A stretch of 64,000 bases of DNA from Gluconobacter kondonii (GTDB lineage Bacteria; Pseudomonadota; Alphaproteobacteria; Acetobacterales; Acetobacteraceae): assembly GCF_002723995.1 (NCBI RefSeq), contig NZ_BEWP01000007.1:62001-126000 (forward strand). The letters are read 5' to 3'. Position 1 is the first letter of the stretch; each line of letters opens with the position of its first letter. A model generated the notes under the pieces. It was given only the letters and a program-made list of their open reading frames with translations. It had not been told where the DNA came from and ran no database searches. Below are positions 23,509 through 29,123 of this stretch, in pieces. Made by a program: the position numbers and the translations under genes.

Positions 23509-23964
23509 TCAGGCCGAAAGATGGGCCTTCACCAACGCACTGGCCTTCGCCGGGTCCAGATCTGCGCCGAAGCGCTCTTTCAGAGCGGCCATGACCTTGC
23601 CCATGTCTTTCATGCCCGCCGCTTCGGTCTTCTGCACCGCTTCGGCAATCCCGGCCTTCAGCGCAGATTCATCGAGTTCCGGCGGCAGGTAGGACTTGAT
23701 CGTGGCGATCTCGCCCTCTTCCTTTTCCGCCAGTTCCGGACGGCCACCCTCACGATACATCGTGGCGGATTCCGTGCGGGACTTGATCATGGAGCGCAGA
23801 GCGGAAATGATGTCCGTATCCGTCACCTCGGCGCTTTTGGCACGGGCAGCGACATCCAGATCCTTGATCTTGGCCGTGATCCCGCGGATCTGCGCCACCG
23901 TCTCGGACTGACCGGCCTTCATCGCCGTCTTGAGGTCATCCATGATCTGCTTGCGAAGCGACAT
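23509..23964 (-). CDS. GatB/YqeY domain protein
   Basis: 151 aa, nearly full family length. YqeY-like proteins resemble the tail domain of GatB, the tRNA-dependent amidotransferase subunit, but act as free proteins of unclear role. Visible family features are MSLRKQIMDDLKTAMK at the start, the ALRSMIKSR segment, and AVQKTEAAGMKDMGKVMAAL plus the terminal DPAKASALVKAHL. It is divergent from carA, an arrangement common in alphaproteobacteria, where yqeY is often followed directly by dnaG-rpoD; here two genes intervene. Confidence 0.88.
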   Translation of the reverse strand: MSLRKQIMDDLKTAMKAGQSETVAQIRGITAKIKDLDVAARAKSAEVTDTDIISALRSMIKSRTESATMYREGGRPELAEKEEGEIATIKSYLPPELDESALKAGIAEAVQKTEAAGMKDMGKVMAALKERFGADLDPAKASALVKAHLSA

Positions 23965-24099
23965 CGCCGTTCTCCTTTATCGGACAGCCCGCAGGAAATT
24001 CCCTCGGCGAGCCGTCCCTCATTCCGTGAATGGCGGCAAAATCGCACAAAAGCCGGTTTGCAACAATCCGACAGCCTTCCAACGCACGAAACGAGCCAT

Positions 24100-24160
24100 T
24101 CGGAAAAAACTTCCCACCCCCTCCCGGCATGCACAACACGCAGTGGGAAAAAACTTCCCA
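24100..24160. promoter_or_regulatory. Twin 17-bp dyads upstream of carA
   Basis: TCGGAAAAAACTTCCCA (24100-24116) and TGGGAAAAAACTTCCCA (24144-24160) are identical at 16 of 17 positions and each has dyad symmetry of the form GGGAA-N5-TTCCC (first copy GGAA-N6-TTCC). Start-to-start spacing is 44 bp, about four helical turns. They lie 65-125 bp ahead of the long carA start, between carA and divergent yqeY, as expected for a pair of operators. Confidence 0.6.
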
Positions 24161-24224
24161 TTCCGTTGCCGATCCCTTATTCAGAGCCTCCAGAGTACAT
24201 CCGGCAGCCAGCAACGGGGCGACC

Positions 24225-25619
24225 ATGGACATCGACAAAATCATTGAAAAAGCCGGAGGCGCGGACGAAATCGCCGCTCTCGCCGGCGTCGGACTGGAGG
24301 CCGTGCGCAAATGGCGCCAGTCCCGCATGGTCCCCACCAAACACTGGCCAGCCCTGCTGCGCGTACCGGGAATCGCCCTTCAGGATCTGACAGCGGATCT
24401 CACCGCACCTCAACCCCCACAAGAACAAGCCCAGCAAGAACAAGAAAGAGAGACGGACGTGTCCAATCCCTGCCCTCCCGGCGCCAACGCCGCCCTTGTC
24501 CTTGCAGACGGGACAGTCCTGTGGGGTCGCGGCTTCGGCGCCCACACCGATGGCGCCGTCGGTGAACTGTGCTTCTCCACCGGCATGACCGGCTATCAGG
24601 AAACCCTGACAGACCCGTCCTTCGCCGGACAGATCGTGACCTTCACCTTCCCGCATATCGGCAATGTCGGCACCAATGCCGATGACAACGAGGCCCCGAA
24701 AATGGCTGCCCTCGGTGCCGTCGTGAAGGAAGACATCACCGCCCCTGCAAGCTGGCGTTCGCATGACCCCCTCGCGGCATGGCTGAAGCAACACAACCGT
24801 GCGGGCATCAGCGGCGTCGATACCCGCGCCATCACCCGCACCCTGCGCGACAACGGCCCCCAGACCGCCATTCTCGCCTTCCCGGAAAACGGCCGCATCG
24901 ACACGGACAGCCTGCTGAACCGCGCCCGCCAGTGGCCCGGCCTCGAAGGCATGGACCTCGCCAAAGAGGTGACGCAGCCCAAGCGCGTCTGGACACAGGG
25001 TGTGTGGGAAACCACCCGCCCGGCCCGAACCGAAAACCGTCGCCGCGTTGTCGCCATGGACTATGGCGCCAAGGACAACATCCTGCGCTGCCTCGTGACC
25101 GCCGGCTGTGACGTCACCGTTCTGCCCGCCACGGCTACCGCCGAAGAAATTCTGGAACTCAAGCCCGAAGGCGTGTTCCTCTCCAACGGCCCCGGCGATC
25201 CGGCCGCAACCGGCACCTATGCCGTCCCCGCCATCCGCACAGTGCTCGACGCGAACGTCCCCGTCTTCGGAATCTGCCTCGGCCACCAGCTTCTCGCACA
25301 GGCGCTGGGCGGCAAGACCTACAAGCTGGAACGCGGCCATCGCGGCGCCAACCAGCCGGTCAAAGACATTGAGACCGGCCGCGTGGAAATCACCAGCCAG
25401 AACCACGGCTTCGCAGTGGACGAAAAGTCCCTGCCTACGGACGTGAAGGTGACGCATGTGAGCCTGTTCGACGGCTCCAACGAAGGCATCGCCTCGACCA
25501 CGAAGGACGCCTTCTCCGTCCAGTACCACCCCGAGGCGAGCCCCGGCCCGTCTGACAGTTTCTATCTTTTCGAGCGTTTCGTCGCGGTCATGGACCGTCG
25601 CGCTAAAGCAGGAGCCTGA
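24225..25619 (+). CDS. carA: Carbamoyl-phosphate synthase small subunit with N-terminal HTH domain
   Basis: 464 aa from ATG 24225. CarA hydrolyses glutamine and passes ammonia to CarB to make carbamoyl phosphate for pyrimidines and arginine. Residues 1-60 are an extra helix-turn-helix-like domain (IIEKAGGADEIAALAG, then EAVRKWRQS and a WPALL segment) of the small YdaS/Cro-like type. Residues 61-78 are a Gln/Glu-rich linker. The CarA N-domain follows, then the class I amidotransferase with nucleophile C351 (GICLGHQ) and the terminal VQYHPEA. An in-frame GTG at 24459 with a purine-rich stretch upstream would give a standard-length CarA of 386 aa. Both products are possible; the upstream frame is uninterrupted and protein-like. 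carB follows after 3 bp. Confidence 0.92.
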   Translation: MDIDKIIEKAGGADEIAALAGVGLEAVRKWRQSRMVPTKHWPALLRVPGIALQDLTADLTAPQPPQEQAQQEQERETDVSNPCPPGANAALVLADGTVLWGRGFGAHTDGAVGELCFSTGMTGYQETLTDPSFAGQIVTFTFPHIGNVGTNADDNEAPKMAALGAVVKEDITAPASWRSHDPLAAWLKQHNRAGISGVDTRAITRTLRDNGPQTAILAFPENGRIDTDSLLNRARQWPGLEGMDLAKEVTQPKRVWTQGVWETTRPARTENRRRVVAMDYGAKDNILRCLVTAGCDVTVLPATATAEEILELKPEGVFLSNGPGDPAATGTYAVPAIRTVLDANVPVFGICLGHQLLAQALGGKTYKLERGHRGANQPVKDIETGRVEITSQNHGFAVDEKSLPTDVKVTHVSLFDGSNEGIASTTKDAFSVQYHPEASPGPSDSFYLFERFVAVMDRRAKAGA

Positions 25620-25622
25620 GCC

Positions 25623-28877
<3,255 letters not shown>

Positions 28878-28913: not shown

Positions 28914-29123
28914 CTATTCCTCTTCGGAAAATCCGAGGATATCGCCCGGCTGACACTCCAGCACACGGCACAGCATTTCTAGCGTTGAAAACCGGACGGC
29001 CCTGGCCTTTCCCGTTTTGAGAATAGACAGGTTCGCCAAAGTCAGCCCGACCCGTTCCGACAGTTCTGTCAGGGTCATCCCGCGCTCACGCAATAGCGTA
29101 TCCAGATTAATGGCAATGGGCAT
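28914..29123 (-). CDS. Small XRE-family HTH regulator
   Basis: 69 aa, consisting of little more than one Cro/C1-type helix-turn-helix: LLRERGMTLTELSERVGL, a turn, then TLANLSILKTGKARAVRFSTLEMLCRVLECQPGDIL. This is the compact YozG-like form. No toxin, DUF2975 or other usual partner is adjacent, so it is not an obvious antitoxin. It faces greA across a 260-bp AT-rich region carrying two identical dyads that could be its operators. Confidence 0.85.
   Translation of the reverse strand: MPIAINLDTLLRERGMTLTELSERVGLTLANLSILKTGKARAVRFSTLEMLCRVLECQPGDILGFSEEE

Follow-up and report, generated by a model that had tools for sequence, protein, structure and literature searches.

Proline utilization A (PutA) is a trifunctional metabolic enzyme with an N-terminal DNA-binding domain of the ribbon–helix–helix type and acts as an autogenous transcriptional repressor of its own regulon (PMC5293562). 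CPSase, the enzyme of carbamoyl-phosphate synthesis, is located at the branch of arginine and pyrimidine synthesis, and its regulation in Escherichia coli is a complex classic case with several separate regulators. Promoter P1 of E. coli carAB is controlled by the trigger enzymes PepA and PyrH (PMC6245113). These enzymes act at carAB together with ArgR, PurR, RutR and other regulators. Phage Cro proteins, including those of Xfaso 1 (3bd1), N15 (6on0) and P22 (1rzs), are small free-standing proteins, and Cro binds a palindromic site. A Cro/XRE-like helix–turn–helix (HTH) fold is also present inside the phosphonate enzymes HEPD, MPnS and HppE.

The product of the carA gene of Gluconobacter kondonii, designated here HTH-CarA, is similar to PutA in that a DNA-binding-type domain and a catalytic enzyme are found together on one chain. 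It differs in the enzyme and the pathway, in the type of the domain, which is a Cro-type HTH and not a ribbon–helix–helix, in that the enzyme belongs to an allosteric complex as one of its subunits, and in that the regulatory function is inferred. The case also resembles E. coli P1, where carAB is controlled by enzymes, but those trigger enzymes are separate proteins, whereas in Acetobacteraceae CPSase itself carries the DNA-binding-type domain. The CarA HTH resembles phage Cro in predicted fold, with weak sequence similarity (E 8.6e-4 for 3bd1), but it is fused in frame to an enzyme and is not free-standing. Structural matches to HEPD, MPnS and HppE reach only Z 5–7, and the fold is a common one.

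The window, that is, the whole analysed stretch of 64,000 nucleotides of the G. kondonii genome, contains carA on the forward strand as a single uninterrupted frame of 464 amino acids from ATG 24225 to TGA 25617–25619, according to the open reading frame listing and the translation. GTG 24459, codon 79, lies in the same frame. The frame encodes the Cro-type HTH domain (residues 1–56, 24225..24392, +; NF046037 60.7 bits), with the recognition helix at residues 24–33 (24294–24323, +); an inter-domain linker (residues 57–78, 24393..24458, +), disordered in the model and variable among relatives; and CarA proper, comprising the CPSase domain and the glutamine amidotransferase (24459..25619, +; TIGR01368, PF00988, PF00117). 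An earlier note, written without database searches, had claimed an uninterrupted HTH–CarA frame, a small YdaS/Cro-type HTH in residues 1–60 and an 18-residue Gln/Glu-rich linker. All three claims held: the 464 codons contain no stop, NF046037 matches residues 3–56, and the linker corresponds to residues 61–78.

The CarA part is complete, since TIGR01368 scores 444.7 bits over residues 89–457, above the equivalog-domain cut-off of 307.35. Residues C351, H435 and E437 are invariant among 35 aligned sequences; these are the catalytic Cys, His and Glu of class I amidotransferases. The linker has pLDDT below 50 at residues 59–79 in the full-length model, and its length and composition differ among relatives, with other linkers in other genera. 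The gene carB, encoding the CPSase large subunit (25623..28877, +; open reading frame listing and Pfam CPSase_L domains), starts 3 nt past the carA stop and is presumed, by inference only, to be co-regulated with carA.

Residues 1–78 alone match the NCBIfam family NF046037 ‘carph-isopro’ with 60.7 bits over all 54 positions, and the whole protein scores 55.4 bits, both above the cut-off of 38. Pfam PF15943 (YdaS_toxin) gives 26.7–27.5 bits for the domain alone and 22.9 bits for the whole protein, below the gathering cut-off of 30; the HTH of CarA is accordingly a relative of YdaS_toxin that does not reach membership. An AlphaFold2 model based on an alignment of 32 sequences has a mean pLDDT of 90.5 for residues 1–60 and contains predicted helices at 3–10, 13–20, 24–33, 38–44 and 52–55. 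Its top PDB match is the Cro protein of phage Xfaso 1, 3bd1 (TM 0.80, Foldseek E 0.012; Z 8.3, rmsd 2.2 over 59 residues). Other structural matches are N15 Cro 6on0, which is also available on operator DNA, and P22 Cro 1rzs, so that Cro proteins rank first. No Foldseek match is below E 0.001, the small helical fold is common, a Z of 8.3 is counted modest for a small helical bundle, and both the HTH and full-length models are monomer predictions.

In the sequence profile search, Cro proteins were also found first (E 5e-4 to 2e-3). The best PHROG match is a transcriptional repressor (E 2.8e-5), and the best phage matches, with 38% identity at E 1e-3, come from Caulobacter phages, one of them annotated as a transcriptional repressor; the plasmid search with the domain gave no match at E<=1e-3. 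The domain is 98% identical to that of named Gluconobacter species. Across 32 sequences G11, G12, A26, R28, K29, W30, P37, H40 and W41 are invariant, and in the recognition helix E25, A26, R28, K29, W30, R31 and Q32 are invariant or nearly so. A phage-Cro-like fold is predicted by the model for the HTH of CarA.

The domain is present throughout the family Acetobacteraceae. Matches at E<=1e-5 were found in 382 of 391 genomes, each at least 95% complete, although linkage to CarA was not checked for each match. The nine genomes without it comprise four small genomes (G029, G116, G440 and G488) and five assemblies of 300–700 contigs. A draw of 150 Acetobacteraceae genomes gave a match at E<=1 in 146, of which 141 lie below 1e-9 and five are weak (E >0.1). 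From this draw 121 genomes were tabulated, 115 of them among the loci described below; 25 of the remaining 29 were not retrieved, and G019, G039, G075 and G110 had no CarA-body match. No CarA body was obtained from G540, G546 and G686, and only partial bodies from G026 and G656. In total, 142 genomes with a tabulated carA yielded 135 fused loci with at least 200 nt upstream, after exclusion of G035, G026, G146 and G069 (contig ends) and of the fusion-less G116, G029 and G440.

Fusion to CarA was verified at all 135 loci, and HTH and CarA body share one stop-free frame in 134 of them, the exception, G088, being a frame slip. The HTH codons are under purifying selection, with a median dN/dS of 0.15 (53 pairs), and a 60-codon stretch of the CarA body has a median of 0.09 (48 pairs). 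Fusion, conservation and selection are all shown directly by these data, and conservation of residues 1–60 in related genomes, which the earlier note had set as a check, held across Acetobacteraceae. All 60 genomes searched contain a single CarA match, which leaves only the fused protein to serve as the working subunit.

Outside the family the domain has other partners. None of the 49 examined NF046037 loci outside Acetobacteraceae is a CarA fusion; these are the strongest matches, weaker ones being left out, and comprise 29 loci of the class search (L044–L073 minus L066, which belongs to Acetobacteraceae) and 20 further matches. In L044–L073 except L066, the same domain family is N-terminal on several unrelated alphaproteobacterial proteins. 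The commonest partner, identified by eye, is what we take to be a COG4223/mitofilin-like membrane protein; in L044 a gene of this type directly follows an apparent end of hemD, also by eye. Single partners, again by eye, resemble NAD(P)HX epimerase (L063) and a reductase (L070). The carph-isopro domain is thus repeatedly joined to other proteins and merits a separate study.

Two palindromes, absent from the earlier note, are located upstream of carA. The proximal putative operator, TGGGAA-AAAAC-TTCCCA (24144..24160), is an inverted repeat with family-wide conservation. The distal putative operator, TCGGAA-AAAAC-TTCCCA (24100..24116), is imperfect and forms a direct repeat of the proximal one with a spacing of 44; its dyad lies 44 bp upstream of the proximal dyad, and both are 5' of ATG 24225. 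The same two-palindrome layout recurs in relatives of this locus. An exact GGAA-N5-TTCC was found within 200 nt upstream in 131 of the 135 fused carA loci (two copies in 80, one copy in 51), representing 83 of 85 genera, and the remaining four contain one-mismatch copies. As controls, the motif occurs in none of the 135 carA bodies (203 nt each) and in 0.19% of simple shuffles.

Paired palindromes 30–60 bp apart, with at most one mismatch overall, were detected at 120 of the 135 loci and in none of 6750 shuffles; the other 15 loci have no pair by this definition. The paired sites are therefore shown. Their spacing is mostly 38–40 bp, with smaller groups at 44 and 50. These peaks differ by roughly half-helical-turn steps, a regularity that might simply reflect lineage, and a model of rigid looping is weakened by the varying spacing. 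The recognition helix and the palindrome half-sites are conserved to about the same degree.

The 131 loci with an exact site, aligned on the site nearest to the start, fall into two classes with respect to promoter-like elements. In class B (71 loci) the 17-bp palindrome fills the -35/-10 spacer between a TTG element (0.99, 0.92 and 0.93 at -8 to -6) and a TA element (T 0.59, A 0.90, with A at +16). The start codon usually follows about 6 nt past the TA element (A 0.65, T 0.61, G 0.65), a leaderless-like arrangement. In class A, to which Gluconobacter belongs (60 loci), a TA-rich element (T 0.75, A 0.73) follows 17 bp after the right half-site, which therefore overlaps the -35 region. Correspondingly, in the window the right half of the proximal palindrome is located where the -35 element is expected, and a weak putative -10 element, TATTCA (24178..24183, +), inferred from the class A alignment, lies 17 bp after the TTCCCA half-site. 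The site nearest to the start may be the distal one where the proximal is mutated, and class B takes in a few loci without the spacer arrangement, e.g., G100.

The promoter-like placement is shown by the alignment; that the palindromes overlap elements of the carA promoter is an inference made from sequence alone, with no transcript data, as is the repression that the class B geometry favours. A consensus promoter and terminator scan of the window region gave no sigma-70 promoter and no terminator. A known riboswitch in the carA leader is unsupported, as the Rfam search of 23900–24600 gave no RNA family at gathering score. The gene yqeY (PF09424; 23509–23964, minus strand) is divergent from carA across the operator region, and control of yqeY by the distal operator, which was also considered, is not supported: no conserved promoter elements surround that operator in 42 class A and 38 class B loci.

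The strict palindrome TGGGAA-N5-TTCCCA is almost confined to carA. It was found at 69 places in 60 searched genomes (50 with a match), 64 of them at carA, in 48 genomes, and five elsewhere; the reversed-pattern control gave five in the same 60 genomes. A tandem-pair scan of 150 genomes gave matches in 77, and 69 of the 75 listed forward places are at carA, one per genome; this count leaves out a few further matches. Four of the six listed pairs away from carA belong to one repeat array, and the reversed control gave nine places, five in one genome. Judged by these controls of five and nine, the sites away from carA (five and six) are at about chance level. No wider regulon was seen from the off-carA strict sites, a ribH-like frame lying about 640 nt from the one examined. 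When one mismatch is allowed, the looser pattern GGGAA-N5-TTCCC is frequent in the genome of the window (124 against 67 in the control), so that single loose matches carry no meaning. Near-confinement to carA is shown for the strict and paired patterns.

Domain and sites are also absent together. Within 400 nt upstream, no exact site was found for the carA genes without fusion, namely those of G029 and G116 (genus g30) and of G440 (genus g31), although the region of G440 contains two one-mismatch matches. In genus g31 the HTH domain is kept by 42 of 44 genomes, the exceptions being G440 and G488, of which the latter has only 41 nt upstream on its contig. For carA of 28 other alphaproteobacterial families, neither the HTH (0/28) nor the site (0/28, 27 with the full 400 nt) was found. 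That exact sites are missing where the domain is missing is shown; its weight is limited, because the three fusion-less carA sit in reduced genomes of 1.7–2.1 Mb, where wholesale loss of regulation is possible, and, since they fall within two genera, at most about two loss events were sampled. Loci L193 (G440), L078 (G116) and L079 (G029) may be noted as small-genome Acetobacteraceae without the CarA HTH and exact operators. Among the 49 NF046037 loci outside the family, GGAA-N5-TTCC occurs in one, and recognition therefore probably differs there.

The linker may contain a second start. In the window the candidate internal start of a short CarA consists of the purine-rich GAAAGAGAGACGGAC followed by GTG 24459 (24444..24461, +), and AAAGAGAGACGGACGTG is identical in at least 17 close Gluconobacter loci despite indels in the preceding linker. 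A Shine–Dalgarno core (GGAG, GAGG or AGGA at proper distance) with a start codon is present in 71 of 131 linkers, four of the 135 loci without an anchor being dropped, while codon shuffles gave a mean of 11.7 and a maximum of 25 in 1000 runs. The duplex energy to the anti-Shine–Dalgarno averages -4.5 for 104 linker starts versus -2.1 for 3390 other codons. The carA of G440, which has no fusion, seems to begin at the equivalent ATG. GTG 24459 itself is preceded by purines but has no strict core, so that the linker of the window counts among the 60 negative ones of 131, and in 21 of 117 scored loci (18 of 135 dropped) the linker is devoid of start codons. Many members, though not all, are accordingly likely, by inference, to make a short HTH-less CarA; the internal start may alternatively be a relic of the ancestral CarA start. 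The earlier note had posed a choice between ATG 24225 and GTG 24459, which is probably not exclusive, as both starts may be used; the outcome it named as refuting, translation only from 24459, has the sequence evidence against it. Translation from the long ATG is supported by the purifying selection and by class B promoter-like elements nearly abutting the HTH start.

Taken together, HTH-CarA is likely to be both the CPSase glutaminase subunit and a PutA-like autogenous repressor of carAB, with binding, sign and effector inferred. The suggestion of the earlier note that this CarA may bind DNA and control its own operon gains support from conserved paired palindromes in the carA promoter region that are found nearly only at carA and are absent without the domain; the function is still inferred. 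In the proposed mechanism, the Cro-like HTH on its flexible linker would let the protein bind DNA and regulate the carAB operon that encodes it. HTH domains, paired through the CarA–CarB oligomer or by the domain itself, would bind the two TGGGAA-N5-TTCCCA-type palindromes, mostly 38–50 bp apart. As the proximal palindrome covers the putative carA promoter, binding would most likely block RNA polymerase and repress carAB, and the distal one would probably add affinity through cooperative binding or looping. Binding of the HTH to these sites, repression rather than activation, the role of the oligomer and any connection with effectors (ornithine, UMP or others) are inferred.

A CPSase tetramer would present as many as four HTH domains, sufficient to occupy two palindromes. 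In the presence of ornithine E. coli CPSase is tetrameric, and in that of UMP it exists essentially as a single heterodimer (PMC6245113); by analogy the oligomer state is a plausible sensor for carAB control. The effector is left open because the sign of the coupling is not obvious, as ornithine signals a need for more enzyme. Control of the enzyme level simply by unassembled CarA has the same likelihood as effector-linked oligomer control. On a bolder and only possible reading, the two starts supply HTH-CarA and HTH-less CarA to the same CPSase oligomers, and the effector-set state together with the number of HTH domains decides operator bridging; the allosteric state of CPSase, set by effectors such as ornithine and UMP, would then be directly read out as carAB transcription.

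Against the autorepressor reading it can be said that the evidence is correlative and that a trans-acting factor could own the palindromes. The corresponding rival, in which a separately encoded factor binds the palindromes and the CarA HTH serves otherwise, e.g., in protein contacts, is favoured by the merely correlative link of domain and site and by their possible joint loss upon decay of carAB regulation. It is nevertheless very unlikely: the sites are found almost only at carA, whereas sites of an unlinked regulator would usually be expected at its own gene or at other targets as well, and the recognition helix varies about as little as the half-sites. One candidate for such a factor was considered and, for the family, rejected. 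A 69-residue Cro/C1-type HTH protein (PF13443, E 3.7e-22) is encoded convergently just after carB (28914–29123, minus strand), but this small HTH_26 gene is present in three of 22 family genomes, in the other two far from carA. Activation of carAB by HTH-CarA from the same sites, or a switch by ligand or oligomer state, is unlikely. In its favour, the proximal site of class A reaches into no promoter element other than the -35 region, a position that activators also use. The TTCCCA half found there bears little resemblance to the -35 consensus, and no promoter was detected by the consensus scan. It is opposed by the class B site, which fills the whole -35/-10 spacer between TTG and TA, a typical repressor place, and by the fold match to Cro, whose relatives are repressors.

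The remaining alternatives concern translation. That the upstream frame is untranslated and CarA is made only from GTG 24459 agrees with the enrichment of core-preceded start codons in linkers but is all but excluded by the purifying selection on HTH codons, the stop-free continuation of the HTH frame into the CarA body (134 of 135 loci), the scant room for an untranslated leader in class B, where promoter-like elements nearly abut the HTH start, and the genera without a linker start codon (21 of 117 scored loci). A further reading makes two products obligate in all members, with the long form dedicated to regulation and the short form acting as main enzyme. The 71 of 131 linkers with core and start, against the shuffle mean of 11.7 and maximum of 25, and the start of the fusion-less G440 carA speak for it; the 60 linkers without such a start, the window included by the strict rule, make a second product unlikely to be obligate in the family, and this reading is improbable. 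The preferred reading remains that HTH-CarA is the glutaminase subunit and, by inference, the autogenous repressor of carAB.

No paper on the HTH-CarA fusion or its function was found in the open-access literature searched (titles and abstract openings), and the main text of a Gluconobacter oxydans RNAseq paper (PMC5756330) contains no occurrence of ‘carA’ or ‘carbamoyl’. The HTH domain is already known to annotators, as its NCBIfam name shows. By the inferred autoregulation HTH-CarA groups functionally with autogenous enzyme-repressors such as PutA, while enzyme, fold and operator differ.

Instead of the several separate regulators of E. coli, Acetobacteraceae appear to use an enzyme-fused phage-repressor domain and a paired operator on the promoter. 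If this is true, it would be a compact example of enzyme synthesis being controlled by the enzyme itself, directly testable in the tractable Gluconobacter and Acetobacter and useful for strain engineering, and would show the capture of a phage-type repressor domain by core metabolism.
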